This document shows, one piece after another, positions 3,243 through 46,465 of a DNA stretch of 46,785 bases. Under the pieces are notes generated by a model. That model saw only the letters and a program-made list of their open reading frames with translations, was not told where the DNA came from and did no database searches. The position numbers and the translations under genes are program-made. Source of the DNA: a virus; IMG/VR virus record IMGVR_UViG_3300044995_000427, positions 1 through 46,785 of that record, one strand, 5' to 3'. Numbering within the stretch: position 1 is the first letter of the stretch; every line of letters begins with the position of its first letter.

Positions 3243-5186
3243 TCACATTTCGCTACGGTGTCTAAGAACTTGTAGGAACTTGAGTACATTTGCTTTATCG
3301 TATGTTACAGGGTGTGGTATAGACTTGCGTACTATTGCGGCGTAACTTTTTGCATTTCTTGCAATTCGAGAGTCTAGCACAGCGACTACTCCTCGGTCTG
3401 ATTCGGAGCGGATAAGACGTCCTGCTCCTTGTTGGAAATCGATTAGCGCGCACTGCAGATCAAGGGTTTGCCATGACTGCAATGCAGCTTTTCGTTCATC
3501 TATTCCGGCGCGCATAAGCACCTCCTCAAGGTGTTTTTTACGCGCACGAAAAACAGGATCTTCAGGTGTTGGGAAGGGAAGACGTGGGATTACAACAAGG
3601 CGCAGTTTTAGCCCTGGTATATCTACGCCTTCCCACAAACTGCGCACACCTAGAAGCACGCTTCCAGGTGTTTCTTTGAATTGCGTTACACAACTTTCAA
3701 TACTTCCTTCTTGCGCGATAAGGTTTTTTACTCCTCGTTTTGAAAGTCGTTCATAGAATGCTTTTAGGTCTCGGAACGACGCACATAGAATAAATGCTCC
3801 TCCTCCGGAAGCGTTACAAAGGTCAGCTATCTCATTAGAACAACTGTCCCAAAACGCTTGCTCGTTTTGTTTGCTATAAGTTGGTATGGTTTCAGCTATA
3901 TACAAGCAAGAGAGCTGAGAATAATTGAACGTATGGGGTAGAATGTGTTTTTCTGTAATATCGGAGGGTCGAAGTCCAAATTCACGGGCGATATAATCGA
4001 AAGTGCCTGCTGTGGCGAGAGTGGCGCTAGTGATGATAACGCTTTTATGTTCTTTTAGGTGTTTTCCTACAATACCGCTAATTTCGATAGGCGCTGTGAT
4101 AACGCTTTTTGTTGTACCATTTCGGTCTTCTTCTATTTGTGTGTAGGTAACATAATGTTCTTCGTTAGAGTCGGTACGATTTTGCATAATATCGCAGGCT
4201 TTAAGTAGTTTTTTTGTCTGCGCCGCTACGGCCTTTAACCGTACAATTTCTTTTGCATCGAGGCGAATGTCTCGCGTTGTTGACTCAGACCAAACACCTA
4301 AATTCATAAGTGCGTTCTGTACGGGCATTAAAGCGTCGGCGACTTCTGCTGCCGCTTTTGCTAACGCAGCATTTGGTTGTACGATGTCCTGAGCAGGCAG
4401 AGACGCTAATAGCAGTGCTACTTTTGTATCAAGTTGTCTATCAATTTTTATACAAGTGTTTTGACTCATTTTGTGTAGCAGATCTACTTGTTGTGCGTTA
4501 ATTTTGTACGTATAGGCATCACGGAATGCAGCTGGGGCTTGATGTGCTTCGTCAATAATCAGTACATCAGGCTTCCCAAAAATAGCGCCTTGCATCGCAA
4601 AATTGAGTGCAAGTAGTGCGTGATTTACAATAATAATTTTGGCTCCGTTACAGCTGTCTTTGTGTTGTCGGTAGCCACAACGTCCAGCTAGTTCACATTG
4701 TCGCTGGGCGCATTCAGTTACACGGAAGTGGTGTGTGAAGGGAAACTCAGTAAGTGCTTCATCTAGATCTCCTAGGGGGTTTTCTTCGAACCACTTTTCG
4801 AAAAGTTCAATGTCTTGTTGTTTGTACCAATTTTTGGCGGTCACGTAGAATTCAGATAGTCTAATTTGACATACAAAATTTGACTTACCTTTCATTAACG
4901 CGAATTTCTTCGTGACACCGAGGCGATCACACAAAAAGGGAAGATCTTTTAAAAGGAGCTGTTTCTGTAGCGCCTTCTTCGCTGTAGAGATTACAACTGT
5001 CTTGTCTGTCAGTAGGGATGGGATAGTGTATGCATAGGATTTTCCTGTGCCTGTGGGTGCTTGGATAAAGGCAATCCCGCCGCGTTTGATGATGTCTTCT
5101 ACAGCATCGCACATAGCGACTTGTGAAGGGCGCACGGTCGGGACGACCCCGTTGTTTGGGTCTTTTAGCCAGTCAGATGCAGCCAT
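3243..5186 (-). CDS. dinG-like: DinG/XPD-type superfamily 2 helicase with Fe-S cysteines
   Basis: A 647-residue helicase. Visible motifs in order: R19-P-S-Q22 (Q-like motif), Walker A APTGTGKS at 43-50, an iron-sulfur cysteine set (C106, C159, C164, C170 and C179 are candidates), VNHALL after the cluster, DEAH at 212-215, then SATLATAG, LLGVRSLWEGVDIPG and QGAGRLIRSESDRGVV (motifs V and VI). This order is typical of DinG/Rad3/XPD 5'-3' DNA helicases, which unwind D-loops, R-loops and forks using a 4Fe-4S domain. Length is close to the usual 640-720. The start is the ATG at 5184-5186 with a strong AAGGAGG site. It is the first gene of the leftward operon, divergent from the tail operon. A role in replication fork processing is inferred. 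Confidence 0.9.
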   Translation of the reverse strand: MAASDWLKDPNNGVVPTVRPSQVAMCDAVEDIIKRGGIAFIQAPTGTGKSYAYTIPSLLTDKTVVISTAKKALQKQLLLKDLPFLCDRLGVTKKFALMKGKSNFVCQIRLSEFYVTAKNWYKQQDIELFEKWFEENPLGDLDEALTEFPFTHHFRVTECAQRQCELAGRCGYRQHKDSCNGAKIIIVNHALLALNFAMQGAIFGKPDVLIIDEAHQAPAAFRDAYTYKINAQQVDLLHKMSQNTCIKIDRQLDTKVALLLASLPAQDIVQPNAALAKAAAEVADALMPVQNALMNLGVWSESTTRDIRLDAKEIVRLKAVAAQTKKLLKACDIMQNRTDSNEEHYVTYTQIEEDRNGTTKSVITAPIEISGIVGKHLKEHKSVIITSATLATAGTFDYIAREFGLRPSDITEKHILPHTFNYSQLSCLYIAETIPTYSKQNEQAFWDSCSNEIADLCNASGGGAFILCASFRDLKAFYERLSKRGVKNLIAQEGSIESCVTQFKETPGSVLLGVRSLWEGVDIPGLKLRLVVIPRLPFPTPEDPVFRARKKHLEEVLMRAGIDERKAALQSWQTLDLQCALIDFQQGAGRLIRSESDRGVVAVLDSRIARNAKSYAAIVRKSIPHPVTYDKANVLKFLQVLRHRSEM

Positions 5187-5263: not shown

Positions 5264-5866
5264 ATGCCCGCAATTATTCGTCCAGCTGAACTTTCCCCAG
5301 CCGATAAACTTGCAGCTGCGATCACGGAGGAAGATACAACTACAACTTCCGTCTCAGCTTCTGCTCCAGCTAACGCCGCTGCTCCTGCTTCTGATGAGAA
5401 ACCCATGACGCCAGATGAACGTTGGCGTGCGGGTTTAAAAGCAGTAAATATGACGGAGGCTGAAGCTCTTGCGATCATCGATGCGATTATTACGAAGGGT
5501 TATTATGAAGAGTCCATGACGCTCTTTCGTGGGCGGCTTTCTGTGACTTTTAGGTCACGTGATGGAGCTTCATTGCAGCGTATTGCGTCAGCGCTTGATC
5601 AGTGCGCGACGAACGATCCTGCTGTACATCGGCAGGTAGCTGGACGTGTGATGCTAGCTTGTTCGTTGGTTCGCTATGGTAATAAGACACTTGAGCCGCC
5701 GACCGGAACGATGAATCCGGTGGATCGCGAAAAAGCTATGCAGGCTTCTTTGTCTTTTATTGACAGTTTGAGTGGTCCTGTCGTAGTTCAGTTGTACAAC
5801 GCTTTGGCGCGTTTTGATGCGAAGGTATATGCTGCGCTAGCAGATGGGAGTCTAGAGGGTTTTTGA
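5264..5866 (+). CDS. Putative tail assembly chaperone (G-type)
   Basis: A 200-residue protein immediately upstream of a second chaperone-like frame and the giant tape measure gene, the standard place for tail assembly chaperones. Residues 1-50 are low-complexity Ala/Thr/Ser; the rest is helical (MTPDERWRAGLKAVNMTEAEAL, then a C-terminal helical block ending ALADGSLEGF). The start ATG at 5264 follows an AAGGAG ribosome site. The last sense codons before TGA read G GGT TTT, a consensus -1 slippery heptamer, and the -1 frame continues directly into the next gene. That matches the lambda G/GT pattern and is the main support for the call. These proteins bind the tape measure and are absent from the finished virion. 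No sequence family is recognised. Confidence 0.65.
   Translation: MPAIIRPAELSPADKLAAAITEEDTTTTSVSASAPANAAAPASDEKPMTPDERWRAGLKAVNMTEAEALAIIDAIITKGYYEESMTLFRGRLSVTFRSRDGASLQRIASALDQCATNDPAVHRQVAGRVMLACSLVRYGNKTLEPPTGTMNPVDREKAMQASLSFIDSLSGPVVVQLYNALARFDAKVYAALADGSLEGF
5857..5863 (+). other. Predicted -1 programmed ribosomal frameshift site (G GGT TTT)
   Basis: In the frame of the 5264 gene the codons read GAG GGT TTT TGA, so bases 5857-5863 form X XXY YYZ with X=G and Y=Z=T, directly before the stop. After a -1 slip, both tRNAs re-pair on GGG TTT and translation continues TTG AGT ACC into the 5863-6231 frame. The fusion would have about 322 residues. GAGGG, which covers the first bases of the heptamer, could instead be a ribosome site for reinitiation at the overlapping TTG; the two explanations are not exclusive. 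Confidence 0.7.
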
Positions 5867-6231
5867 GTACCCCGTCAGGGTTGCTTCGAGCGCAGATGCT
5901 TCGCGCTGGGCTAGAAGCTCCTGCACGGGGGTCTATACGAGACCAATTGTTCCAAGAACTCGAACGTCGTTCGCAGAATCTGCGTTTAGCAGAAGTATGG
6001 TTGGTTGTCCAACTTTTGAGTGAGATTAATCAATCGCTTCTTATGTTGTTGGGTGCTAAAAGTGATGTTCTTCAAACATATATGGAATCGATAAAGCGGC
6101 GAATGATGGATTACGAAGCGGAGTTGTACCAGGATCGGTACGTACCTGCTTTTGAAGCCAAGCGTCGTGAGGAGGAAAGAAAGAAGAAAGCGGAGTACGA
6201 ACGCAAAAGAAAAGAGATTGAACAGTTCTAA
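5863..6231 (+). CDS. Putative tail assembly chaperone extension (T-type), -1 frame
   Basis: A 122-codon frame that overlaps the preceding stop as TTGA. It has no ATG near its beginning; the first possible start is TTG at 5863. The protein is helical, with a middle LAEVWLVVQLLSEINQSLLML segment and a highly charged C-terminus (FEAKRREEERKKKAEYERKR...) likely to form a long helix or coiled coil. In lambda-like tails the T part exists only as the C-terminal extension of the GT frameshift fusion and contacts the tape measure; the sequence arrangement here agrees. It ends 18 bases before the tape measure start. If frameshifting is wrong, it would be a separate TTG-initiated protein. Confidence 0.65.
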   Translation: MSTPSGLLRAQMLRAGLEAPARGSIRDQLFQELERRSQNLRLAEVWLVVQLLSEINQSLLMLLGAKSDVLQTYMESIKRRMMDYEAELYQDRYVPAFEAKRREEERKKKAEYERKRKEIEQF

Positions 6232-6249: not shown

Positions 6250-9200
6250 ATGGCTACGAACGATTCGATCACGCTACCAAGCTATAACTCTATGCAGGCG
6301 CAAGCAGGGTTGCTTCCACCAAGCTTTGCGCCCCCTATTTATACAAGTCAGGTCTCTTCTGCGATTGCGCAGGGAGGCTTTTCTGCTGTTGGTTCTATTA
6401 CTACTGCTGGTAGTCCTGGTACGAGTTTTGGTGCGGGTCTATTTGGCGCGCAGCAATTACAGAGCTTTACAACTGCACCTCCTATGGTTCAAGGCCCTAC
6501 AGGGGTCATGATGCCGCTTATGCCGGGTGCGTCAAATAGCCCTTACGCGTCTATGAACCCTTACGCAGGGTTAGCGGCCATGGGACTTTACGCCGGTCCT
6601 CCAGGTTTGTATACGCCTATGGCACCTGCCCCTCCTCCTGTATATGGAGGGCAATGGGGGCGTTTGCCTTTAGGTCCAGAGTTACCGGCGCCGCATTTCA
6701 ATACGGCGTATATGATGGAGCTTGATCGTGCACATCTGACCGAGAATGTTATGGAAGCTCAAACCTGGGCTGCTATGGGAGTTGGTGCACGTATTGGTAC
6801 TAATGCGTTTGCGGGTCTAGGCGGGGCGGCTTTAGGACGAAAGATCGGAGGGCTTTTTGGACCACGTGGACGTGCCGCGGGGGCATTTATTGGTGGTATT
6901 CTTGGTTTTTTAGGGTCTGAATATATAGGTTTAGGCAATGCTGGCCAAAATGCATTTATGAATTTTGTGGCTTCGCCGCACATTCATCAGCAGGCGATGG
7001 CCGGTTCTATTATGGAGTCGTCTCGTCATTACGTAAACATTGGTAGCGCACTCCATGATAGTGGTGCTGGATTTGATCATCATAGTGCGCTTTTAGCGGC
7101 GAATCGTATTAGAGATCTCGCCAATTCTCGTTCATTTAAGCATCAAACAGGCGATAGGTTTAACCAAGCTGATTTGTATCTAATTGCAAATGAAGCCGCC
7201 CACAATGACTTGCTATTTGGCGTACAATCGCCGGATCAATTGGTGGGGCGCGTACGAGATATTGCAAAGCAATTACATGCTTTCATGTCTCTTGCGCAAG
7301 AACCGGATGTGCGACGCGCAATTCAAACCATGGGGCAGCTTCAAAGCTCTGGTCTTGATTTAGCGCAGACAATGCAAGCGGTTCAAAATGGCCGCATATT
7401 TGCGCGTTTGGCGGGGACAACGTTTGCGGAGTTTTCTAATAGCGCTGGTGCAATGGGTTCGCAGACGTTTCAGTCCATGGGGCTGACACAAGGCCTGGGG
7501 CTGCAAACGGGTATGATGCATACAGGGCTTGCATACGCAGCCCGCGCAGGTGGGATGGACCCGCGTTTGTTGAACCTTGTTGGAGGTGTTCAAGGCCTTG
7601 GGGCGCTGAATACAATGTTTTCGGGCAGTATGTTGCAGATGCCCATGCTTGCGCCAAGCGTAATGTCTTCAGCAGCTGGCATTGACGCGAATGCATTGGT
7701 GCGGCTTCTTTCAGGTAACACAAATGCTTTTGCACAGACAGGTCAAGCCACTGCAGCGCTTCAAGCTATTGTGGCACGTCAGGGTGTAGCTGGGCTTGGC
7801 GCGGCTATCGCGATGCAGCCTTTGATTCAAGACACAATTGGTTCAATGCTGCATGCGCAAGGACCGTTCGCAATGCGAAATTTTGAGGATCAAAACATCC
7901 TCAACACAATGCGCCAAATGGGTCAATCTGGCTCAGCTGGGTTTATGACCATGGCTCAAATTATGGGTATGCAAGGACCTCAAGCAGTTGCGAGAGCTAG
8001 GGAGCTTGCATCACCTGCTTATTTTGAGCGACAACGTGCGCAAATTGAGGTAAATCGCCGTGAAGCAAGACGAGCCGAGCTTGATGCGCGTGAAGCAATG
8101 GCGCCATCGTTTGGTGAAACGATGATGCGTGAAATGGGGGTTGATCTAGCGTATCTCGGTCGTGATGTAAGCCGTGCTGTAGCACATACGTTGGGTGATG
8201 ATCATCACGCACATTATTCGTCTACAACCGACGAGGAACTTCGACGTGATCGAGCTGTTTATAACTCTCGGGCTTATGCTCGGTTTATGGAGAGGCTTTC
8301 CAGACAGGGAGCTGCACATAAAGAACACACGTCTTTTAGTCAATCAATAGGGGACCAATTGGATCTGGCGCGTGCAGAAGGGTTTAGCGGTCTTGGTGCT
8401 TATCTTGCCGTAGGGTTGGGTGTTGGGATTAAAAATACGCAGCGGCGTCTTTCTGATTATCGCGAAGGTTCGCGGATTGCCGGACTATTGGCCAGTACAA
8501 CTCTCGGAGAGTCAAACCAGGCTACGGATGCGCTGGAGCGGTTTTTTGGCCGTGAGCAGTCAGCTGCTGTGCAGCAGCGGCTATCTGAAGCTGTAGCTCG
8601 ACGACTTGGGGACACAGGGCCTTTTGGCAGTCTTACAGCTATGTCTATTTACAATACGGTTAGTAGCGCTGTTGGTGCAGGAGATTTGTTTCAGTCACGA
8701 CAATTAAGCGGCTCTTATTTCCGCGATGCGTTTATCCGCCAAGCGATGGCGGCAGGTAAGACGCGCGAAGAAGCGTTGGAGTATTATAGACAGAATGTAG
8801 ATACAGTGGTTCAAGGCATGTCCGCCACGCTGCAAACAATGCTTACGCCTGAGCAGCGTCAAGCCTTGTTTGAAAATGCGCGGAGAACGGCTGCGTCGGG
8901 GACTGGACGTGGAGGGTTTAGTGAGGCACTTGAGGAAGCAGAAAAAGACTTACGTGAGCGCTTGTTTGGTCGAGATAGCGCAGAAATTCAGGATGCGTTT
9001 TCTCATCATGCCGCAAATATTGAAGGTTTAGGGCGTGAAGGCACTGAAGAAAATCGTAAATCACGAAGTTATATCATCGCCGCGAGTATGCTTAGTGCGC
9101 GACTGCGCGCTGTGGGTATGAACACTCCGGAAGGAGAACGATTGTTGCGTCAGTTGCGCGAATTGCGTCAAGCTGCCGAACGGAGTGGCGTTAATACTTC

Positions 9201-9921
9201 GCGAGCACAAACGCAAATTACTGGAGCTGCCGATCGTCTTGCAGAAGGTGTTGGTGCGGATATGGCGAGGATGTTTGCGCAAACACATATGGCTGACAGT
9301 GGTAGAGCGTTGTTAGAAGCAGTAGAGCAAGGAGAAGAAAAAAGCAGAATGCTTCGAGGCGCTCGCCGGGAAGCCGCGGGATTTGCAGCTCTTGCTGCGG
9401 GTAGCGGAGAACTAGCTACAGCTCTTCGTGCAGCAGGTGCTGGGGATGTATCTACGTATAATCGCGAGCGCGTAATTGCGGCTATTGAAGGATTGTCGTT
9501 GGAGGCTGTAAACGCACTACCAGAACCCCAGCGTGCGTTAGTTCGTGCCATCCGCCGTGGGGGTGATGAAGGCGAGCGTGCATTAGCTCGTCTTGGCCAA
9601 GCTTATGGTCTTCGTGCAGAAGCATTGAGGCGTGAATACCACAAGCGCGGACAAATAAGTCGGTGGTGGAGTTCATTGTGGGGAGATACTGAAGACAAAT
9701 ACGTTAATGAAGGGTTGCAACGGCTTACGCTTGCGGATCTTCAAGCGGATAACCAATTGACTTCTACAAATGCTACAGAAAATGCAGCTCAGCAGGCAGG
9801 AATTGGAAGTAGCAATGACCCCATGCTTGATGCAGCACGAGAGCTTCGTCAGGCGGCACAAGCGCTTCAATCTATTGCCCAAGGGGCTCAGCTTGAATAT
9901 ATGATTAATGGAACACGCTAA
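6250..9921 (+). CDS. Probable tail tape measure protein
   Basis: A 1223-residue protein, the largest of its segment, directly after the chaperone pair. The N-terminal 150 residues are Gly/Pro/Met/Ala-rich. About residues 177-225 form a glycine-zipper hydrophobic region (GLGGAALGRKIGGLFGP, AAGAFIGGILGFLG), which resembles membrane-inserting segments of tape measures. The rest is mostly Ala/Arg/Glu-rich amphipathic helix with long charged stretches (RREARRAELDAREAM, RELRQAAERSG). In the family this protein sets tail length, fills the tail tube and is ejected with DNA. At roughly 0.15 nm per residue it predicts a tail near 180 nm. The ATG at 6250 is preceded by a run of G with poor spacing, so the exact start is less certain. 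No lytic domain is visible. Confidence 0.75.
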   Translation: MATNDSITLPSYNSMQAQAGLLPPSFAPPIYTSQVSSAIAQGGFSAVGSITTAGSPGTSFGAGLFGAQQLQSFTTAPPMVQGPTGVMMPLMPGASNSPYASMNPYAGLAAMGLYAGPPGLYTPMAPAPPPVYGGQWGRLPLGPELPAPHFNTAYMMELDRAHLTENVMEAQTWAAMGVGARIGTNAFAGLGGAALGRKIGGLFGPRGRAAGAFIGGILGFLGSEYIGLGNAGQNAFMNFVASPHIHQQAMAGSIMESSRHYVNIGSALHDSGAGFDHHSALLAANRIRDLANSRSFKHQTGDRFNQADLYLIANEAAHNDLLFGVQSPDQLVGRVRDIAKQLHAFMSLAQEPDVRRAIQTMGQLQSSGLDLAQTMQAVQNGRIFARLAGTTFAEFSNSAGAMGSQTFQSMGLTQGLGLQTGMMHTGLAYAARAGGMDPRLLNLVGGVQGLGALNTMFSGSMLQMPMLAPSVMSSAAGIDANALVRLLSGNTNAFAQTGQATAALQAIVARQGVAGLGAAIAMQPLIQDTIGSMLHAQGPFAMRNFEDQNILNTMRQMGQSGSAGFMTMAQIMGMQGPQAVARARELASPAYFERQRAQIEVNRREARRAELDAREAMAPSFGETMMREMGVDLAYLGRDVSRAVAHTLGDDHHAHYSSTTDEELRRDRAVYNSRAYARFMERLSRQGAAHKEHTSFSQSIGDQLDLARAEGFSGLGAYLAVGLGVGIKNTQRRLSDYREGSRIAGLLASTTLGESNQATDALERFFGREQSAAVQQRLSEAVARRLGDTGPFGSLTAMSIYNTVSSAVGAGDLFQSRQLSGSYFRDAFIRQAMAAGKTREEALEYYRQNVDTVVQGMSATLQTMLTPEQRQALFENARRTAASGTGRGGFSEALEEAEKDLRERLFGRDSAEIQDAFSHHAANIEGLGREGTEENRKSRSYIIAASMLSARLRAVGMNTPEGERLLRQLRELRQAAERSGVNTSRAQTQITGAADRLAEGVGADMARMFAQTHMADSGRALLEAVEQGEEKSRMLRGARREAAGFAALAAGSGELATALRAAGAGDVSTYNRERVIAAIEGLSLEAVNALPEPQRALVRAIRRGGDEGERALARLGQAYGLRAEALRREYHKRGQISRWWSSLWGDTEDKYVNEGLQRLTLADLQADNQLTSTNATENAAQQAGIGSSNDPMLDAARELRQAAQALQSIAQGAQLEYMINGTR

Positions 9922-9935
9922 ACTAATTTAGCGGA

Positions 9936-10133
9936 ATGCGAACGTACGTAAGAGAGACTATCCCAGCAAGCGCTCTGCATATCATGGATGTCCAGATTAG
10001 GGCGCTTATTACTTGTTTTCGTAATGATTTTACGCCCGATTTAGAGGATTGGCCTTCTCGTGTACGGTTAGCTAAGTATGTTGTTCATAAGGGTGGTCCG
10101 CTGCTGATTTTTCGTTATAAGGAGATGTCATGA
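9936..10133 (+). CDS. Hypothetical small protein, 65 aa
   Basis: A short frame starting MRTYVRETIPASALHIMD and ending LLIFRYKEMS, between the tape measure and the next virion gene. Its TGA overlaps the next start (ATGTCATGACG), which implies coupled translation and supports it as a real gene. There is no strong ribosome site. It is compact, with a mixed basic composition and no membrane segment or cysteine pattern. Genes of this size after the tape measure can encode small baseplate-hub or tail adaptor proteins, for example LysM-type, but no such motif is visible here. Confidence 0.55.
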   Translation: MRTYVRETIPASALHIMDVQIRALITCFRNDFTPDLEDWPSRVRLAKYVVHKGGPLLIFRYKEMS

Positions 10134-11383
10134 CGCGAGCTGTATTTGCACCAGGACGTGATCGCCCCGGAGAAGCAGCAAGACCAAATGTTGCATTTCG
10201 TCCAGGAAATGGGGCAGGTGGTTTTTATGCCCGTTTTTTTCCTGGGCAAACTCCTAAATATGCGATTAATCGAAATCCGCGCGGGGATCAGTGGCGTGAT
10301 ACACAAGCTCGTATTTTTTTGCGTGTGGATCTTGATGAGATGAATCTATTCCGCGCTTCTGTCGCGGATGTACATACTCGCAATTATTTGTTACCGCGTA
10401 TTGCGGGAGATCCTGCCCCTTCAGAAAATAGGACAACCGGGGGACCGAGTACGCATGACCCTTCAGTTAGAGCGAGGCACATTCCGAGTGGTACTGGGTA
10501 TTTGGATTTTCTGCTGCAAAGTGTGCAAATGCCACAACAAGAAATAACTCAGGTGGTACAGGGTTTATCGGACAATTATGTATTGTATACGTTTGGCGCA
10601 GCTCCGCCAATGTGGACGTTTTCCGGGGTATTGATCAATACAGTGCAGGACGATCAAGCCTCGAATATGTTTCGACTGTACACGCAGGTTCTTAGAGCGA
10701 CACAATTAGCTCGGCGTCAAAAAATTGTGAATATTTCGTTTGATTCTTATGTGGCTTCCGGGGCGATGATGAATCTCAATCTCGCCCTAACGGCGGGGCA
10801 AGAGACAGCTGTTCCATTTTCGTTCAATTTGCTCGTTAAACGCGTGGCAGTTGTCAATTACACCCAAAGTTGGGTCCCGACACGTGCGGGTACACCATTT
10901 GCGGCAGATCTTCATGCTATTGCGTATGATGGACGGCCACGTCCTGATACTACGCTTTCTCGTATTGCAGCTAGGACGCCTACAGGCACTGAACCTGTAC
11001 AAAATGAGGATCCTCGTGTACGAGAGGCGTTGTTTTCTCCATTACCTGCGGAGACACAACAGTCAGAAATATTGTTTACTCCAGCTTCCCCCTCATCTTC
11101 ATCGTTGTTTTCATCGTCGTCTACATCCTCATCCTCATCCTCATCCTCATCCTCATCCTCATCCTCATCCTCATCCTCATCCTCATCCTCATCCTCATCC
11201 TCATCCTCATCCTCATCCTCTGGGTCTCCTCAATCATCGGCACCAGCTTGGGTACCAAGATCTTTGCAAGAGGAACTTCAAGAGGCCCTTAGGCCTTCGC
11301 CGCTGCTGCCTACTCCGTTACCGGAAGAATATACTGTTGAAAATCGCGCACGTCCTGAAACGTACAGACAGACAAGGCCATGA
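10130..11383 (+). CDS. Putative baseplate/tail structural protein with 32-residue polyserine tract
   Basis: A 417-residue protein in the tail operon. Residues 1-310 look beta-rich and globular (WTFSGVLINTVQDD, MFRLYTQVLRATQLARRQK, FNLLVKRVAVVNYTQSW), in the style of baseplate proteins around the tail tube, but no named family is recognised. Residues 333-364 are 32 consecutive serines encoded by alternating TCC and TCA, followed by a Pro/Glu-rich C-terminus (SLQEELQEALRPSPLLPTP). The serine tract is probably a flexible, length-variable linker. The ATG at 10130 overlaps the preceding stop, and an ATGA overlap links it to the next gene. Confidence 0.6.
   Translation: MTRAVFAPGRDRPGEAARPNVAFRPGNGAGGFYARFFPGQTPKYAINRNPRGDQWRDTQARIFLRVDLDEMNLFRASVADVHTRNYLLPRIAGDPAPSENRTTGGPSTHDPSVRARHIPSGTGYLDFLLQSVQMPQQEITQVVQGLSDNYVLYTFGAAPPMWTFSGVLINTVQDDQASNMFRLYTQVLRATQLARRQKIVNISFDSYVASGAMMNLNLALTAGQETAVPFSFNLLVKRVAVVNYTQSWVPTRAGTPFAADLHAIAYDGRPRPDTTLSRIAARTPTGTEPVQNEDPRVREALFSPLPAETQQSEILFTPASPSSSSLFSSSSTSSSSSSSSSSSSSSSSSSSSSSSSSSSSSSSSGSPQSSAPAWVPRSLQEELQEALRPSPLLPTPLPEEYTVENRARPETYRQTRP
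11124..11220 (+). repeat. In-frame hexanucleotide microsatellite (CATCCT)n, about 16 units
   Basis: A perfect period-6 run of about 97 bases inside the gene at 10130-11383. Read in frame it gives TCC TCA codons only, so it encodes pure serine. The other two frames on this strand would give Ile-Leu and His-Pro repeats. Unit gain or loss keeps the frame, so the tract can vary in length by slipped-strand mispairing without inactivating the gene. The shorter surrounding run (TCATCTTCATCG...) is imperfect and suggests an older serine-rich linker that expanded. Confidence 0.9.
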
Positions 11384-16304: not shown

Positions 16305-17009
16305 GTGCCGTCCGTTAAAGATCGTGACCAAGAGCTTTGGTTAGAGTGGAAAAAATCACCTACGCAAGCAAATCTTGAGGCGCTTATGAAGCAAATGATG
16401 CCTGTTATTATGCGTGAGGTGAACAGGTGGAAAAATTTGGCTCCTAGTTTTTTGTTAGAAAACACGGCAAAGCAATTAGCTTTGGAAGCTTTCAAATCTT
16501 ACAACCCAAACGCAGGAACTTCTTTGAATACGCATCTTACGTGGCAACTACAAAAGCTATCGCGAGTTGCGTATTCTAACCAAAATACGTTGTCTGTCCC
16601 AGAGCATCAAAGGTTGACGTTTAATCAGTATATGAACGCAGCACGGCATCTAGAAGATCAACATGGAAAGCCCCCTACACACGAAGAAATTGCTGATTAT
16701 TTAGCGATTCCGCCTAAAAAACTACGTAAAATCATCGATAATGTTCAAACTCGTGAGTTGATGGAATCGGGTGAGGGTCCGCCTATTCAGAAGATGAATG
16801 ATGATGATTATGAGTTCATTCATCTTGCTTACAGTCAGATGACCCCGCTACAAAGGCGTATTTTTGAGCTAAGGACAGGCTATAACAATACGCCAATAGC
16901 TCCTAATGCCAAAGCCATCATGACTCAACTTGGTTTGAGCCAGGGGCAGCTAAGTTATCAACTAAACGCAATTAAGGACTTGTTGAAAAAGAGTCAAAAA
17001 TTACGATAA
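16305..17009 (+). CDS. Sigma-70 family RNA polymerase sigma factor (within baseplate operon)
   Basis: A 234-residue sigma-like protein. Residues 20-105 correspond to region 2 (AKQLALEAFKSYNPNAGTSLNTHLTWQLQKL, compare the usual YdP..G..F.tY). TLSVPEHQRL, followed by HGKPPTHEEIADYLAIPPKKLRKI, is a region 3 pattern. MTPLQRRIFELRTG, followed by the helix-turn-helix-like MTQLGLSQGQLSYQLNAI, is a region 4. It lacks regions 1.1 and 1.2, like alternative sigma factors. It would redirect host RNA polymerase to phage promoters. The GTG start at 16305 has a GAGGTG site, and the gene sits 3 bases after the hub gene and 8 before the amidase-like gene, so it is co-expressed with structural genes. Region 2 is divergent, so promoter specificity cannot be predicted. 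Confidence 0.8.
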   Translation: MPSVKDRDQELWLEWKKSPTQANLEALMKQMMPVIMREVNRWKNLAPSFLLENTAKQLALEAFKSYNPNAGTSLNTHLTWQLQKLSRVAYSNQNTLSVPEHQRLTFNQYMNAARHLEDQHGKPPTHEEIADYLAIPPKKLRKIIDNVQTRELMESGEGPPIQKMNDDDYEFIHLAYSQMTPLQRRIFELRTGYNNTPIAPNAKAIMTQLGLSQGQLSYQLNAIKDLLKKSQKLR

Positions 17010-18618: not shown

Positions 18619-20651
18619 TGGCTGAATATACAATTACTTCAGAGGATGTAAAAAACGCGAAAGAAGTGCTACGAGCTCTTATTAGAGCCAACAATCCGAA
18701 TATTGATGTTACAGAAGGTAGTATTCTTAGCGATCTTTTGGTTGACGGGCATGCCACTATTTTTGCGTATTTGTCTGCGCTTATTTCAAATGAACGTGCG
18801 CGACAATCGCTATTGACTTTACGCAATCTTCCTGAAAGTGAAGGCGTGGCCGATGCGGCAGACGCTTTGTTGTCTAATTTGTTTTTTACGCGTAGCCAAG
18901 GACAGTTCGCGCGGGGGGTAATTACGCTGTATTTCTCTAGACGTAAGGATGTTTTGGTTCCTAGAAATGCCCGATTTTTTAAGACACCTTCACATGTGTT
19001 TTATGTTGATAGTTCTACTGATGTATTTATTCCTGCAGCGGATCTTCGTCCTTATATAGATGGTACAGGTATAGTTGCAGGTTATACGGCTAATATTTTT
19101 ATTGTCGCTGCACGTACAGGAAGTGATTACAATTTCCCCCCTGGGCGATTTGTGGCGTTTGATCAATTTGACCCCTATCTAACATTAGTAGAAAATCCGC
19201 GTGCCATTCAGAACGGGGAGTCTGTTCAAAGTACGCAAGCGTTTATTGAAAGGTCTGCAAAAGCAATGTCTTTGCGGGCATTGATCAACGCGCGATCTAA
19301 CGCTAGTACGCTTCTAGATAAATTCCCCAATGTACAAGATGTCATCACAGTCGGTATGGGTGACCCCGAAATGCGACGCGACATGATTCGCGTTGCTGGT
19401 GCTACCAACTTGCATGTTGGTGGCCATATGGATGTGTTTGTTCGACTTCCTGTACAAGAAGTTAGTGAAAGACTAAAGCTTGGGCAAGCACAGCAGCGAA
19501 ATGACAATCGTGCTGTGATTTTACGGGATACGGGTACCACTCCGAGTGGTTCGTTTATTACAGCAGGTGTTAAAGTTGGCGATATTTTGCGAATTTTGAA
19601 CGGTATTCCAGAAGCTCCTGCGGATTTTCGCATTGTAGCAGTCAAGCCTACGGAACTTGAAGTTTCAACTGATGCTTGTTTTTCCGTTGCCACAGATACA
19701 TTAAATCCACCAGGAACGCTATCGTACTCTATTGGGAATAATTATCCGGACTTTAATAACCGTGCGGTAGTTTTGAATAGCGCCGCTGCGAAAACGTCCG
19801 CAGTATTTTCCGTGTATAATGCGGTTCAGCTGGCCCCTGGCCCAATTTACGCAGTAAAGCGTGTTGAGATTTTGCCTCCTCTTCCGCCTCAGCTTTTACC
19901 GTTTGCAGATCCGGCAACGGGAGGAGTGGTGCTAACAAAACGGCGTATGACTCCTGCGGGTAGGGACCCACACCCAGGGGAAGAACCATCGTACAGAATT
20001 TATGTATTGAATCCCAAAGAAGGTAATTCTGCTCTTGCTGTACATCTGTTGGACGTAGGTTGGCCGAGTGTTGATTTGTCAGACGTAACCGTAGAAGTTA
20101 CGTACGATACGGTGTCTGACTTTGCCGCTGTACATACATATACGCGTATAACAGACCGTACAAGTTGCAGTGATACGCTTTGTCGTTCACTGTATGGTGT
20201 GTATGTAAGCGGTATTGTACCGTATCGCCAACGCACTGCACCGGCTGGTTCTGTAGCAACAGTGCCTGTATTTGATCCGATTGCTGCAAGTAAAGCCGTT
20301 GTCTCCTTTATTCGAACTTATAAGAGTGCGGACCCGTTGGATGTAAATACGTTGCTTACAGTAGCGCGAGACACGAGTGAAGGCGCATCTGTGTTTTCAA
20401 CGGCACTGATGCGTTATGTACTCTATCTTCCTGATGGGCGGTATATTGAGTACGCCAGTGAAGACGTACTGACTATTTTGCCTGACGGTGTTACGTCAAG
20501 TGCTCGCGTAATCAATCTTACAGATTTGGGACTTCCTACTTCAGGATATTATCCAGCGCTACGAATGTTACTCCAAAATCTTGGAGTGTCTGAGCGACTG
20601 ATTCGATATTTTGCTGAAGACGGAGCCATTGTCTTTGAGCGGAGAAACTAA
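18618..20651 (+). CDS. Baseplate J/gp6-like wedge protein
   Basis: A 677-residue protein. The N-terminus (ITSEDVKNAKEVLRALIRANNPNIDVTEGSILSDLLVDG) is the typical opening of J-like/gp6 wedge proteins: a helix, then a short motif placing the protein on the wedge. QGQFARGVITLYFSRRKDVLVPRNARFFKT matches the central beta domain where fA.G.v.l.....v.ip.gt.f is conserved. These proteins form the ring that links baseplate wedges and triggers sheath contraction. The start is the ATG at 18618 with AAGGTG upstream; a TTG one codon earlier is less likely. It forms a TGATG overlap with gp25 and a TAATG overlap with the next gene. It is longer than P2 J (about 300), closer to T4 gp6 (660). Confidence 0.7.
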   Translation: MAEYTITSEDVKNAKEVLRALIRANNPNIDVTEGSILSDLLVDGHATIFAYLSALISNERARQSLLTLRNLPESEGVADAADALLSNLFFTRSQGQFARGVITLYFSRRKDVLVPRNARFFKTPSHVFYVDSSTDVFIPAADLRPYIDGTGIVAGYTANIFIVAARTGSDYNFPPGRFVAFDQFDPYLTLVENPRAIQNGESVQSTQAFIERSAKAMSLRALINARSNASTLLDKFPNVQDVITVGMGDPEMRRDMIRVAGATNLHVGGHMDVFVRLPVQEVSERLKLGQAQQRNDNRAVILRDTGTTPSGSFITAGVKVGDILRILNGIPEAPADFRIVAVKPTELEVSTDACFSVATDTLNPPGTLSYSIGNNYPDFNNRAVVLNSAAAKTSAVFSVYNAVQLAPGPIYAVKRVEILPPLPPQLLPFADPATGGVVLTKRRMTPAGRDPHPGEEPSYRIYVLNPKEGNSALAVHLLDVGWPSVDLSDVTVEVTYDTVSDFAAVHTYTRITDRTSCSDTLCRSLYGVYVSGIVPYRQRTAPAGSVATVPVFDPIAASKAVVSFIRTYKSADPLDVNTLLTVARDTSEGASVFSTALMRYVLYLPDGRYIEYASEDVLTILPDGVTSSARVINLTDLGLPTSGYYPALRMLLQNLGVSERLIRYFAEDGAIVFERRN

Positions 20652-23600
20652 TGGCCGAGTTTCCATATCCAGAAGATAACTTTATTCACAGTTTATCAGC
20701 TTTTTGGACTTCTTGTTTCGAGGATACTGATGTTATTCAAAGGTATTTTAGTGGTGTCCAGTTGAATATGGGACAGCTGTACCTTAATTTTCTTGAATAC
20801 GTATTGTCATCAAGCCTAGAAAACGCCCCAGCTTTTTCTAAACGTTATTACAAACTATTTCAAATTAGTGAAGATGAGCTGAATTACGAAGAAGGCCCAA
20901 GTTCGGCGGAAGATGTATTTGTTTATAAAGCAGAAGATTTGAATATTGTTGATGTTCCGGTATTGATGAATAACATCATTGAGCCGACTATTGTATTTGA
21001 ATCAGGTAACCAATATACAGTTACACCTGGAGCGTTACGATTCAAACACCTTCCATTCAATTCCCAATTCGCGCAACGTCATATAACAAAGATTTTTCCA
21101 GCATGCTACGTATCTCCAATTTCTTTGGATTTCAACGCATTTGGTGTTAAATCTGGCGATCGTTTACGTTTGCGTATTGCAGGGTCCGAGCGCGGTTACG
21201 ATTTGCCTATTGGCTATGTAAATACTGACCGCCTTTGCCTTCGCACAACGCGTAATGAACTTCGGCAGGACCTAACTCGGCGTAATTTTATTGTATCAAT
21301 TGTTCGAACTCCGTATGACCGCCAAAAGTCTGGAGTGTTGTTACCGGACCACCCGGTTGCTGTTTACACATACAGAGGAACACTTGTAGCGGCTAGTCCG
21401 AATATCGATTTTACGTCAGAACCTCGATTTCGCGGTGTGTGGACACCTGGAACAACGTATAACGCAGGTGATCTTATTAATACACCAGCAAATACATTAG
21501 CGATAGCCAAAGTAACCCATGTGGCTGGCGGCTTGTTTGATGTATCTTTTTGGCATGATTGGTCGAATGTAGCAGCTTATGTGGATGCGGATGATGAGGC
21601 CGATCGTGGGTTATTCTCTGTTGCAACTGCTATTTTGTCTGGACTAATTCTGCAACGTCCAGCATTTACGGTCTCAGCTACAGCCACGATCATTGTGGCC
21701 GTATATAATAACCCAATTGGAGCTCAACGCCCAACGTTAGAACTCCAACATACGGAATTAGACGATTTTTCATTAGTCGCACGCAGAGCACATCCGGTAC
21801 GTTATCGTGGGGAAGTTTATCCTACAGGCGGACAAGTTATTTCCGGTGTCGATTATGTAGTTGATGCGCGACAAGGAAAAGTAATTGCTTTGTCTGTTTG
21901 GGACCCGCTGTATCCAGCAAGAGCTACGTATACTTGGGATTTGGAAATTACTTCGTTTTCATACACTCATCGGGGTAATTTTGTAGCGGCTACATTTTAC
22001 GATATTGGCTCAACAGTTATTCATAATGGTGAAGCATATGTATGCACGGAAAGCCATTTTGCTGTTACCTTTGACCCTGCAAAATGGCGGAAAATAGTAA
22101 ATATTTTTCTTTTTGATTATGCTCAAGTATTACGTGAAGTTGCATGTTGGGCAGCGGATGTGCTTTATGACCGTGAGACTCTGTACAAGAATTTCGGTTA
22201 TCTTTTAGCCGCTAAACGCCCTTCCAGCGAACAGTATCGAGCTTTTCTTCGTGGAGTAGCGCGTCTTTTTGTCCTTGGGCCGACACTTGAGCGTTTTGAA
22301 AGTGCGCTCAATGTAATGGCTGGGCTTCCTGTTATTCGGGAGCAAAATGAAATTTTGCGTTCTTATTCATCGGGGATTCATGCATCAGGAAATGCAGGGC
22401 AAGTTTTTGAAACAAAAAGTGGCCGACTAGGCACTATTGACACTAGTGGTGTTTTTACAGCACCTAATGCTGGTTTTCTTGAGGATGATGTAGGTGCTGT
22501 TATCCACACAGATAACCAGGCTTACACTATTGTGAGTGTGCTTAACGCAACTCAAGCTGTAGTTACACCAGTGCCAAGCCTACCATTGAGTAATTTGCGT
22601 TGGTCGTACACCCATGTGCATATGCAGCGGCGGTTTCGTACTGGGGAATATGTATTTTCTGATGCAGATCGTGGTGGAGAGATTTGGATTTCTAATCCGA
22701 ATGAACCCGCTAATCGAGGTGCATTCAAAATTGTAGCAATTGAAAATGGCTCAACGGTTGTACTTGATGCACCGTTCCCTCTTGTAGATGAGAGTGGTTT
22801 GCAGTGGAAACTTTCTCGAAGCCTTGTTCAACAAGTCATTACGTCACGTCATACTTATACACTTCCTTACCGAGTGCCTATTCGTGCAGATATAGCAAAT
22901 ACCTCTAATTGGGATAAGCTGAAGTTTAAAGCGTTTGAAGCTATTAGTGCTGCCTTTTGGGTCAGTGATTACATCACAAACCCAACATGGTGGCACAATA
23001 TGACGATTCCAGAGGAGCTCTTAGAAGTCACCGGGAGTAGTGGGAGAAGAAAAGCTTTAGCAACGATGATCGAGCACATACTCGATCCGTTAGATGGCGC
23101 ATTGATTGGAGATCCAGGACTTGTTATTGATTGCGACGATCTAGGTAATCCAGGCCAAATAAGGTCCGGAACTGCGACATGGTTTGGTGGAGATACAATA
23201 GTACTGAATTTCGACGCACAACCAAGAGACACCGGGCGGTATGTGCAAATTGAATTTCCTGCGCTGAGATTGAAAGCCCAGTTTAGAATTCAAGCTACTG
23301 CTGCCGATAAACGGACGCTTAAACTTCAAAATTTCCCACCACCAGAATTTCAAGGAATTTCCGCGCCGCTTTCTGTTACCGCAACGCTACCACCGCTGGT
23401 ATTTCGACATTCTGTTGGTTATGTGATGGTCGATAGATTTTTGAAATACCATATGTTGCGTATTCAAGTAGACGAGCACGCTCAGTTAGACCCGGCTCTT
23501 GTAGGAGAAGCGGTACAACTAATTCGTGAGGCTAAACCGGCGTATACATATGTGCAATTTGAAACACCTTTGAATTTGCGAGAATCTATTATTAGCAGTG

Positions 23601-24115
23601 ATTCCGCTGTTTTTGGTGTAGGCGTGCCGTTTATCGAACCTATTACAGCAATCAACAATCAAATGGTTGTTGGTCCTCCGACTCTTTTGGATGTAAATGA
23701 CTCTTATCGATTTATTGAACACACGCAACTTATTCCTGATGTACCTGGCACTTACCCAATTGTTCCTGCCTTACCTCCAGCAGGGGCGCCACCGCGTACT
23801 GTTCGATTTTACTTGGTAAAGGGGCGATTTGACCCGTCAATGATTGTATCAGGTAGGCGTCTTTCAGAAGGTGTGGATTACACGTTAGATTATTTGAATT
23901 CTACGATTACGTTGCTGACACCTCTTCCGAGTCCTACAAATTTTCATTGTGTGTTTGTAATTTTACGCACACGTCTTCCTGGTGATCCTCTTGATCCTGG
24001 GGAGACACCTCTTTGTGTTAATGGTGCTGACCCCACACAATGGTCTGTACCAGGAGCTGCACCTGATCATACAGGTTTGATTGATCGTGCATTACAGATT
24101 ACGATTAGCCCATAA
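20651..24115 (+). CDS. Large baseplate/tail protein, gp7-like position, with carbohydrate-binding-like segments
   Basis: A 1154-residue protein after the J/gp6-like gene. The N-terminus (NFIHSLSAFWTSCFEDTD; MGQLYLNFLEYVLSS) is helical and probably joins the wedge. Two segments, WTPGTTYNAGDLI and YDIGSTVIHNGEAYVCTESH ... FDPAKWRKI, have the W/Y-x-G-D-x-V-Y pattern of carbohydrate-binding module 5/12-type repeats. The rest is beta-rich, with Ig-like strands and an arm-like middle. Such modules in phage baseplates are thought to touch cell-wall or surface sugars. The ATG at 20651 overlaps the previous stop by one base. Position suggests a gp7/gp10-type wedge or arm component, but sequence similarity to these is not visible. 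Confidence 0.55.
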   Translation: MAEFPYPEDNFIHSLSAFWTSCFEDTDVIQRYFSGVQLNMGQLYLNFLEYVLSSSLENAPAFSKRYYKLFQISEDELNYEEGPSSAEDVFVYKAEDLNIVDVPVLMNNIIEPTIVFESGNQYTVTPGALRFKHLPFNSQFAQRHITKIFPACYVSPISLDFNAFGVKSGDRLRLRIAGSERGYDLPIGYVNTDRLCLRTTRNELRQDLTRRNFIVSIVRTPYDRQKSGVLLPDHPVAVYTYRGTLVAASPNIDFTSEPRFRGVWTPGTTYNAGDLINTPANTLAIAKVTHVAGGLFDVSFWHDWSNVAAYVDADDEADRGLFSVATAILSGLILQRPAFTVSATATIIVAVYNNPIGAQRPTLELQHTELDDFSLVARRAHPVRYRGEVYPTGGQVISGVDYVVDARQGKVIALSVWDPLYPARATYTWDLEITSFSYTHRGNFVAATFYDIGSTVIHNGEAYVCTESHFAVTFDPAKWRKIVNIFLFDYAQVLREVACWAADVLYDRETLYKNFGYLLAAKRPSSEQYRAFLRGVARLFVLGPTLERFESALNVMAGLPVIREQNEILRSYSSGIHASGNAGQVFETKSGRLGTIDTSGVFTAPNAGFLEDDVGAVIHTDNQAYTIVSVLNATQAVVTPVPSLPLSNLRWSYTHVHMQRRFRTGEYVFSDADRGGEIWISNPNEPANRGAFKIVAIENGSTVVLDAPFPLVDESGLQWKLSRSLVQQVITSRHTYTLPYRVPIRADIANTSNWDKLKFKAFEAISAAFWVSDYITNPTWWHNMTIPEELLEVTGSSGRRKALATMIEHILDPLDGALIGDPGLVIDCDDLGNPGQIRSGTATWFGGDTIVLNFDAQPRDTGRYVQIEFPALRLKAQFRIQATAADKRTLKLQNFPPPEFQGISAPLSVTATLPPLVFRHSVGYVMVDRFLKYHMLRIQVDEHAQLDPALVGEAVQLIREAKPAYTYVQFETPLNLRESIISSDSAVFGVGVPFIEPITAINNQMVVGPPTLLDVNDSYRFIEHTQLIPDVPGTYPIVPALPPAGAPPRTVRFYLVKGRFDPSMIVSGRRLSEGVDYTLDYLNSTITLLTPLPSPTNFHCVFVILRTRLPGDPLDPGETPLCVNGADPTQWSVPGAAPDHTGLIDRALQITISP

Positions 24116-33735: not shown

Positions 33736-34413
33736 ATGAGCGTGCAAGAATTGTTGCGAGATCCAAATGTTGTGGTCTCGGTAGCTCTTGAGGCTTGCAC
33801 TAAGTTATTTGGTCCTGGCGTATTGGTTTGGGAGCCTGACACGATCCGAATTGAATTGTCGCGGAAAAACATCGAGCCTACAGCTAGCTTGATGTCAAAA
33901 ATTCTTGGGGGGATCACGATATTGACTACGAATACGTGGACATATGACCACGATGTTCTTTTTGCTTTTGCTCTTACTTGTTCAGGCATTCCAGCAGCAT
34001 CAGATGCTTTTCATCATCCAACACCGGAACAACTATGCTGGGCTGTAGATGAAATAAGTGTAATTCACGAAAAAGAGATTACCGATGATGAAGGTTTTGA
34101 TCCTGATACGATCGATCCTGCCATTGCGGCAATACTTCATGACGAAGGTTACTTAGTTGCTCCTGATGAACTTTCATTTGCGCAAGATAAGCTTGATAAA
34201 ATGAATGTAGGTGCAGATCCTGAACAAGTTCGTCAGTTGAAAGCCTTGTGGAAACAAATGCCTTCAGACACGTCAGAAGTGCGTAAAATTCTTATGGAAC
34301 AAGGCGAGAATTTTGCCACGGTGCAAATAACTCGTCTTTTGAATTGCCGGGAGTATGTAACTCAGCACAAACTTTTGAGACAGGTGCAACGTGGGCTGGT
34401 TACACGGGGATGA
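33736..34413 (+). CDS. Hypothetical protein, 225 aa, upstream of terminase
   Basis: Starts MSVQELLRDPNVVVSVALEACTKLF and has a mixed fold with an acidic middle (EITDDEGFDPDTIDPAIAAI) and a helical, basic C-terminus (VQITRLLNCREYVTQHKLLRQVQ). The ATG at 33736 lies two bases after the previous stop; it has no strong ribosome site. The 3' end overlaps the terminase start by 23 bases. A gene directly before the large terminase is often the small terminase subunit, but no helix-turn-helix or DNA-binding domain typical of that subunit is obvious here, so the call remains hypothetical. Confidence 0.55.
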   Translation: MSVQELLRDPNVVVSVALEACTKLFGPGVLVWEPDTIRIELSRKNIEPTASLMSKILGGITILTTNTWTYDHDVLFAFALTCSGIPAASDAFHHPTPEQLCWAVDEISVIHEKEITDDEGFDPDTIDPAIAAILHDEGYLVAPDELSFAQDKLDKMNVGADPEQVRQLKALWKQMPSDTSEVRKILMEQGENFATVQITRLLNCREYVTQHKLLRQVQRGLVTRG

Positions 34414-36043
34414 CGGGGAGGTTTTACAAAAAACGCGTGCAGAATTAGCGCAAGCCCTGTTGCGGATTGATGGAAAGCCTTTTTCTTTTGAAAACTATCC
34501 TATGTTTCGCGATATTTATAATGATGGCAGTAAATCCATCATTTTGTTAACAAGCCGCCAAGTTGGAAAAAGCACATTTGTTAGTAATTTTTGTTGTATA
34601 GAAAGTATTGTAACCCCGCACTTCCGCACCCTTTTTGTTAGCCCTACACAAGAGCAAACACATAAATTTTCTACAGAACGTGTGGCTAAAACGATTCAAT
34701 ATTCCCCGCTTATACGAAAATATTTTATCGGGACACATGACTCTAATCGCGTCTTCGTTCGCTCTTTTCGTAACGGGTCAACAGTTTATTTTTCGTATGC
34801 TCAAGATGATCCTGACCGCGTTCGTGGTATCAGTGCCGATCGTGTATTTTATGATGAAGCCCAAGATATTTCACTGGAGTGTGTAGTTCCGGTTGTAAAC
34901 GAAACGTTAGCGAATTCCGAATATGGTTACGAAGCATTTACAGCAACGCCTAAGTCTTATGAGAACCCGATTGAGGCTAAATGGCGTGCAAGTACGATGA
35001 CCGAATGGGCGATAAAGTGTGGAAGCTGTGGTCGCTACTCAATTATTCGATCTGAAACACAGCTCACACCTGATGGCCCTATTTGTCGTGCATGTAAGGC
35101 TCTTTTGAACCCTCGCGAAGGGCGATGGGTAGATATGCACCCCAATGCTAAAGATGTCAAGCTTCGTGGGTACCATATCTCGCGCCCCATTATGATCAAT
35201 AGCGTTCCTGCCGCATGGCCAGAAGGACCTTTGCGTGATAAAGCCAAGGAAAAATGGGCTGACGTCTGGGCTAAATTAGACGGCCCCGAAGCGTACCCGT
35301 TGTCGTTGTTTCGCAACGAAGTGTTGGGTGTAAGTGATTCTGAAGGGACGCGGTTTCTTACACGTGAGGAATTACTTGCGTGCTGTCAAGGTCCGGATAT
35401 TTCGCCTATGCCAATTGCCACCAATATGGAAGGTGTACGTGCAGTGGCGGTGGGGATCGACTGGTCTGGTGGCGGTCAAGACATAAACTCACGAACAGTT
35501 ATCGTTGTATTGGGGCTTTTAGCTAATAACCGTATCAGGCTTCTATATTTCAAAATTTTTCCAGGTACGTCACCTTCTGAAGAGTTTGCTGAAATTCGTG
35601 GGATCATCGCTAATTACGATCGCGTGTTTCCAGTCATGGTTGGCGGAGATGCCGGAGAAGGCAATCTTGGCATGGATTTGCTCAAAAAGCAGATGACCAA
35701 TCCAAATCGCATTATGAAGATTCGCTATGTGGGTACGCAGGGGCCTTACATTCGCTGGAGTACAGAAAGTGGAGAATGGCACCTTCGGAAAACCCCCGCT
35801 ATTGATGCGATGATGACAAAGCTAAAGGCAGGTATCTTTCAGTTCCCTAAAAACCAAGCTGTTATGGCGACACCTTTTCAAGACATACTCAATGAGCACG
35901 TTGAAGTAAGCACGCAAACGGGTTTGAAGCGTTGGACACACGCTCCTTCAAAACCTGATGATTTTCTACATGCTTTGGTGTTTGGGACTGTAGCGTTAGG
36001 TTATTTCACGGGAGAGGTACGGCCTGAAGCGGTTCCGATATAA
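34391..36043 (+). CDS. terL: Terminase large subunit (packaging ATPase-nuclease) with zinc-ribbon insert
   Basis: A 550-residue protein with the classical bipartite layout. The ATPase has Walker A SRQVGKS at 55-61, Walker B RVFYDEAQD near 150, and a coupling segment EAFTATPKSYE. The nuclease has GIDWSGGG near 350 (first Asp), VGGDAGEGN (second acidic site) and PDDFLHAL (third). It moves DNA into the capsid and cuts it. Between the two domains is a CGSCG ... CRAC pair, a probable zinc ribbon not present in all large terminases. The start is GTG at 34391 with an AGGTG site seven bases upstream. A bidirectional terminator follows immediately. Confidence 0.9.
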   Translation: MGWLHGDDGEVLQKTRAELAQALLRIDGKPFSFENYPMFRDIYNDGSKSIILLTSRQVGKSTFVSNFCCIESIVTPHFRTLFVSPTQEQTHKFSTERVAKTIQYSPLIRKYFIGTHDSNRVFVRSFRNGSTVYFSYAQDDPDRVRGISADRVFYDEAQDISLECVVPVVNETLANSEYGYEAFTATPKSYENPIEAKWRASTMTEWAIKCGSCGRYSIIRSETQLTPDGPICRACKALLNPREGRWVDMHPNAKDVKLRGYHISRPIMINSVPAAWPEGPLRDKAKEKWADVWAKLDGPEAYPLSLFRNEVLGVSDSEGTRFLTREELLACCQGPDISPMPIATNMEGVRAVAVGIDWSGGGQDINSRTVIVVLGLLANNRIRLLYFKIFPGTSPSEEFAEIRGIIANYDRVFPVMVGGDAGEGNLGMDLLKKQMTNPNRIMKIRYVGTQGPYIRWSTESGEWHLRKTPAIDAMMTKLKAGIFQFPKNQAVMATPFQDILNEHVEVSTQTGLKRWTHAPSKPDDFLHALVFGTVALGYFTGEVRPEAVPI

Positions 36044-45634: not shown

Positions 45635-46465
45635 ATGCGTAAAGATTCAAGCAAGACTAAGAAGGAACTCAGTGTCTATTACCAAAATGTGGGTAAGTAC
45701 AAGCTCCCGACGAAGGAGGAGGAACGTGCCTTATTTGCACGTTATGCCGCCGCGCGAGAGCAGGCTAAGACTGGTGCTACCGAAGAAATTCGGAAACGTG
45801 CAAAAACCGAACAGATTGAATTGAAGCACAAGATAGCTCAAGGTTATCTTCGATTTGTTATTCGCCAAGCGTTACAGCGGACCCGAGACCCTGTATTACT
45901 CGCAGACTTGATAGGCTACGGTAACACAGGACTTATGGTGGCAATCGACAGATTTGATTTGGCAAAAGAGTCCAGGTTTCTCACATATGGCGCATACTGG
46001 ATAAGAGTCTTTATCCAGGAAGCTATTTATAAAAATCCTGTTGTTCATCTACCAGGGCATACACGAAAAGAGTTGAAACGAAAACGTCTTGCAGCTCTAC
46101 GAAATGGCACAGAACTGCCTTTGAATGAGAACGAAGAACCAGCAGTCTGCTCCATAGACGACATAGCGTATCTGTCCGACAGACAACCTACAGCCGATGT
46201 AACCACGGCTAAGAAGGAAGTAAGCGTACTAAAGCTGTTACAGCAAGCGAACCTTACACCTGCTGAACGGCTAATACTTTTTTACTCATATCACCCAGAT
46301 AACCGTAATATGTCTTCACGAAATTTGCGCATACTACTATTTGATCAACTCGGCTTAGGTTTGACTGGCGCAGAGCTAGACGCAATGCGACGAAGTGCGC
46401 TTCATTCTTTACGTGATGCCCTGGCAAAGCAGGGTATTACCTCCCTAGATGAAGTACTTCCTTAG
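45635..46465 (+). CDS. Sigma-70 family RNA polymerase sigma factor
   Basis: A 276-residue sigma factor closer to primary/group 2 type than the 16305 gene. LSVYYQNVGKYKLPTKEEERALFARY matches region 1.2; LADLIGYGNTGLMVAIDRFDLAKESRFLTYGAYWIRVFIQEAI is a well-kept region 2 (compare DLIQEGNIGLmrAv.kFD...G.rFsTYA.WWIRqAI), including the -10 reading helix; HLPGHTRKELKRKR begins region 3; and LTPAERLILFYSYHP with a following helix-turn-helix-like block is region 4, though this is divergent. It would direct host RNA polymerase to phage promoters. The ATG at 45635 follows GGAG. It stands alone, divergent from the replication operon, suiting earlier or independent expression compared with the baseplate-operon sigma. 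Confidence 0.85.
   Translation: MRKDSSKTKKELSVYYQNVGKYKLPTKEEERALFARYAAAREQAKTGATEEIRKRAKTEQIELKHKIAQGYLRFVIRQALQRTRDPVLLADLIGYGNTGLMVAIDRFDLAKESRFLTYGAYWIRVFIQEAIYKNPVVHLPGHTRKELKRKRLAALRNGTELPLNENEEPAVCSIDDIAYLSDRQPTADVTTAKKEVSVLKLLQQANLTPAERLILFYSYHPDNRNMSSRNLRILLFDQLGLGLTGAELDAMRRSALHSLRDALAKQGITSLDEVLP

Follow-up and report, generated by a model that had tools for sequence, protein, structure and literature searches.

Does translation of the gene at 5264-5866 simply end at its TGA, or do some ribosomes slip back by one base at the stop and continue into the open frame beyond it? The question is raised by a 46,785-nucleotide stretch of viral DNA (hereafter the window), and comparison with related sequences indicates very probable programmed -1 frameshifting of the lambda G/GT type in this tail assembly chaperone gene, from which we infer production of a fusion protein. 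Xu, Hendrix and Duda (2004) reportedly described -1 frameshifting as a general feature of tail chaperones in dsDNA phages. The features of the locus are as follows.

5264-5866, plus strand: 0-frame gene of 200 aa, a tail assembly chaperone by HMM and AF2 fold, giving the 'G-like' product.
5845-5851, plus strand: weak Shine-Dalgarno-like UGGGAGU, a possible 5' stimulator ending 5 nt before the heptamer.
5857-5863, plus strand: slippery heptamer G_GGT_TTT (X_XXY_YYZ), with A_AAT_TTY at the homologous position in all relatives read.
5864-5866, plus strand: 0-frame stop TGA, adjoining the heptamer on its 3' side; TAA in all relatives.
5863-6231, plus strand: -1 frame ORF, with 122 aa past the slip, the 'T-like' part of a predicted 322-residue fusion, matched by an HMM of the relatives' -1 domains.
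5870/5871-5929/5930 (about 5870-5930), plus strand: predicted stimulatory hairpin of ~24 pairs, beginning after a spacer of 6-7 nt from the heptamer.
6250-9921, plus strand: probable tape measure protein of 1223 aa, the conserved downstream neighbour.

The sequence-only reading had placed GGGTTTT directly at the stop of the chaperone gene, and this is borne out at 5857-5863, with the 0 frame reading GAG GGT TTT TGA at 5855-5866 and the heptamer in the register X XXY YYZ. The -1 frame, bounded upstream by a TGA at 5815, runs open from 5818 to 6231, giving the 122 codons claimed past the slip. The accompanying remark that no ATG lies near its start is roughly right, the first ATG being at 5896, although TTG codons do occur at 5863, overlapping the stop, and at 5881. 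The predicted fusion has the junction E-G-F-L-S-T-P (junction peptide EGFLSTPSGLLR). Across the 32 window genes, in-frame X XXY YYZ heptamers occupy 65 of 14,955 codon positions (0.43%), with the chaperone gene the only one to carry such a heptamer 30 nt or less from a stop (none in the other 31 of 32). Given the residues E-G-F and the codon usage of the window, the heptamer has a probability of ~0.11. The strength of the UGGGAGU element lies at about the 15th percentile within the gene, with a Shine-Dalgarno-like element being strong in about half of the relatives. The window sequence by itself is suggestive evidence for a frameshift, and the comparison with relatives carries the case.

With P0001 as the query, three IMG/VR contigs were found at 35% identity, which led on to L011, Salmonella phage Arash, and Vibrio phages D69, D148, and D181; the -1 ORF alone retrieved no relatives as a query, and a search of genome contigs also found none. 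A profile built from five lineages yielded 31 loci, with the Arash terminase as query adding four contigs. The loci read comprise 34 IMG/VR contigs, Arash, and D69 (36), with the incomplete L048 left out. The slip site was not among the peptide patterns used in the homologue search.

Conservation of the heptamer in homologues had been set beforehand as a test by which the frameshift could be refuted; when run, it returned A AAT TTY TAA, closing the gene at the same codon, in 36 of the 36 related sequences. The codon preceding AAT encodes seven different residues in the relatives read (E, A, L, V, Q, G, and S), with its third base always A, whilst the Asn codon is invariably AAT and the heptamer invariably ends in a pyrimidine. 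The GGG of the window and the AAA of the relatives are separated by three A-to-G differences, which jointly keep XXX and the heptamer. For 13 relatives sharing ≤60% identity and taken to be independent, the joint chance is ~1e-9 given the amino acids and codon usage. Heptamers of the forms R_RR.U_UU.Y and A_AA.U_UU.Y shift in E. coli, where efficient Z=U heptamers have UUY in the A site and the top efficiency class is H_HH.U_UU.Y, a class outside which the G_GG.U_UU.U of the window falls (PMC4066793). The homopolymer runs at the junction (GGG and TTTTT) might be taken to indicate that a sequencing or assembly indel has split one gene into two frames; however, 36 other records, two of them isolate genomes, show the same frame relation at the same codon, by which such an artefact is refuted and left with practically no probability. 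Transcriptional slippage, in which RNA polymerase slips on a T5 run to give mRNAs in the -1 frame, could make use of the T5 run present at 5860-5864 of the window and in many relatives, yet this run is short, with such slippage usually needing about 8 or more A or T. Furthermore, Arash and D69, with TTTCTAA, have only T3 and show the same frame relation, and the phase-locked XXX-TTY and hairpin fit slippage by the ribosome, making slippage by the polymerase highly improbable.

Conservation extends into the -1 product. The first part of the -1 domain alignment is gapless from the first post-slip codon, with the pattern L-[KST]-x-P-W-A-x-x-R-x-x-L-x-x-x-G...G-S-x-x-D, and an HMM of the relatives' -1 domains, built with the window excluded, finds its best window match in this frame, a weak one (E 0.013) in which model position 1 falls on the slip codon. 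The window -1 ORF is divergent, with 11–22% identity to the relatives, and its structural model (pLDDT 77) gave no convincing structural match. The slip codon of all relatives reads CTA or TTA, neither a start codon, and the first possible start lies 6 to 49 codons past the slip (16–49 codons in L023, L027, L031, L045, and L055). With relatives lacking a start before the conserved PWAxxR stretch, this stretch is most simply translated by ribosomes arriving from the 0 frame.

These observations bear on termination followed by reinitiation, in which TGA 5864-5866 would end translation and the TTG 5863 that overlaps it would serve as a new start, giving two separate proteins and no fusion. The overlap of the two codons as TTGA, and the UGGGAGU element 11 nt upstream of the TTG, are in keeping with such a restart; however, this spacing is long for a start, the PWAxxR stretch is conserved right after a CTA or TTA in relatives, several of which have no start for 16–49 codons, and neither the kept XXX-TTY nor the hairpin 6-7 nt downstream has an evident role in reinitiation. 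The -1 domains of the relatives argue strongly against reinitiation as the ancestral route, and overall we consider this explanation improbable. Given the CTA or TTA of the relatives, the TTG at 5863 is probably incidental, arising from a Leu codon that overlaps the TGA. The suggestion that reinitiation at TTGA operates as a second route beside slippage is thus unsupported by the relatives, with the TTG of the window leaving a local route possible.

An element absent from the sequence-only reading is the strong hairpin predicted downstream of the heptamer, in the window and in nearly all relatives too. The window hairpin has an MFE of -40.6 kcal/mol over 75 nt, compared with a mean of -23.2 for synonymous recodings, 0 of 200 of which are as stable (z -4.7), and no other tested stretch of the two window ORFs comes close to this region in stability. 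In all 24 non-redundant loci the region past the heptamer exceeds the mean synonymous recoding in stability (z < 0), with z < -1.6 in 21. Among 12 relatives, a helix placed 6 nt past the heptamer shows pairing in 86.5% of cells, compared with 27–49% when slid, and double-sided changes in that helix occur in 8 cells, compared with 3.1 expected from shuffles; the number of pairs with double-sided changes, in the same 12 relatives, is not above that of shuffles. The spacer between heptamer and helix is 6-7 nt in three clades, with the Arash clade having a different structure whose outer stem begins at the same distance from the heptamer. The predicted 3' structure therefore falls within the 5-9 nt range expected of a -1 frameshift signal. 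In L034 and L042, ~65-75 nt past the slip, an AGAGAA apical loop is matched by a complementary UUCUCU further downstream, which may form a pseudoknot in that subclade only. This loop-downstream pseudoknot, seen by eye in these two loci, is absent from L047.

The identity of the 0-frame protein as a tail assembly chaperone is indicated by homology and predicted fold. It is matched by an HMM built from 23 relatives (E 1.4e-20), and its AF2 model, like the other structure predictions made with input loci from viral contigs only, has a core pLDDT of 90–96 and a disordered N-terminus. The top PDB match of this model is the HK97 tail assembly chaperone 2ob9 (E 0.014, prob 0.99), with annotated tail assembly chaperones also among its best viral-model matches, at moderate scores. 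Compared with 2ob9, to which it has 13% identity (TM 0.30/0.50, with partial overlap), the window protein is longer and has the disordered N-terminus. Towards known chaperone families the window protein has no significant sequence similarity, with no significant match in Pfam, PHROG, or NCBIfam and only chance matches in a PDB sequence profile search. Two relatives weakly match phrog_344 'tail assembly chaperone' (E 0.037), such families being highly diverse and membership in them not strictly defining.

The arrangement resembles that of lambda gpG/gpGT: two ORFs overlap immediately before the tape measure gene, the second in the -1 frame, and an X_XXY_YYZ slip site at the 3' end of the first ORF would give a short G-like and an extended GT-like product. 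The lambda heptamer is GGGAAAG; Y is thus A in lambda and T in the window. In the proposed mechanism, most ribosomes would terminate at TGA 5864-5866 to release the 200-residue G-like protein, whilst a minority, slowed by the hairpin at ~5870-5930, would slip one base back on GGGTTTT, with tRNA-Gly re-pairing from GGU to GGG and tRNA-Phe from UUU to UUU. The slipped ribosomes would go on through Leu-Ser-Thr-Pro in the -1 frame as far as 6231, and the resulting GT-like fusion would have 322 residues. If lambda is a guide, the part common to both products may bind the tape measure protein (6250-9921), the extension may recruit the tail tube subunit, and slippage efficiency may set the G:GT ratio. 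We infer from the sequence that the fusion is made, together with its ratio and its binding partners; the earlier expectation of a fusion of ~322 residues by -1 slippage gains support from the conserved heptamer, the -1 product conserved from the junction, the hairpin, and the chaperone fold.

The heptamer of the window adjoins the stop, whereas published chaperone sets average 26–36 nt to the stop (PMC10274946). Stops directly 3' of a -1 heptamer have precedents in Rous sarcoma virus and barley yellow dwarf virus, and an HIV site carrying a stop intercodon showed, in bacteria, competition between release factor and slippage (PMC4373837). A stop that is invariably the next codon after the heptamer, together with these precedents and the ability of U_UU.Y tetramers to shift in E. 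coli (PMC4066793), is consistent with single-site slippage after translocation, in which tRNA-Phe slips by -1 alone or with the E-site tRNA whilst the stop occupies the A site. This would be a mechanistic variant of the programmed -1 frameshift, with the same product and a yield set by release-factor competition. However, a slip confined to the P site needs just T_TTY before the stop, leaving the XXX of every relative and the GGG of the window unexplained, and single-site slippage appears rather unlikely. One tentative possibility is that the invariant stop is itself part of the signal in this clade, with release-factor competition and the hairpin together setting the ratio of short to long chaperone. 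No description of such a termination-coupled -1 frameshift was found for phage tail chaperones.

While the tail chaperone frameshift is itself well known, here it is kept across a whole group of poorly studied phages and is unannotated in the isolates checked. The gp2/gp3 pairs of Arash and D69 are homologous to the window pair; their junction reads A_AAT_TTC_TAA and the next gene is a large structural one, and unlike the fusion reading given here, both annotations list two separate hypothetical proteins with no frameshift. The present reading would correct these annotations, and adds a tail assembly chaperone and a probable tape measure protein for divergent large phages (the myovirus Arash, D69, and uncultured relatives) in which sequence libraries find nothing. 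The invariant stop-adjacent site also offers a natural system in which to study how termination competes with -1 slippage. In Arash (L017, 1622-2538) and D69 (L018, 1536-2395), the second protein is annotated as beginning at an internal ATG, by which its conserved first 7–9 residues are lost.

As the sequence-only reading had it, a tape measure gene appears to follow the -1 ORF: by HMM comparison, 6250-9921 is a homologue of the large ORF that relatives carry behind the chaperone pair (E 8e-16), no other match in the window being significant. Used as a query, this candidate gave no matches in phages or viral contigs, and its probable identity as the tape measure protein comes from its position and from the virion abundance of the syntenic Arash Gp004. 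In Arash virions Gp004 is abundant (1952 spectra), with Gp002 and Gp003 not among the 116 proteins found (PMC10585845). This absence fits chaperones that leave the tail, as do lambda gpG and gpGT, both absent from virions (PMC5009743).

On inspection of gene order and size, the tail module of the window (a small ORF, two structural-size genes, a hydrolase-like gene, and a 234-aa sigma factor) resembles Arash gp5-gp10. The large terminase precedes the chaperone in Arash, D69, and L003; in the window, where the terminase is at 34391-36043, the gene order is different, and the chaperone gene at 5264 is preceded by a helicase-like gene on the opposite strand (3243-5186). After the small ORF past the tape measure candidate, the gene at 10130-11383 has a long, near-unbroken serine run in its C-terminal part, specified by a simple short-unit repeat. 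Two sigma-70-like factors are encoded at 16305-17009 and 45635-46465, their best NCBIfam matches being RpoS-like and under the model cut-off, with the former sharing its length (234 aa) and gene neighbourhood with Arash gp10, a virion-associated sigma factor (PMC10585845). The presumed baseplate or tail protein of 1154 aa at 20651-24115 has a match to carbohydrate-binding module 5/12 (Pfam PF02839), just over the cut-off.
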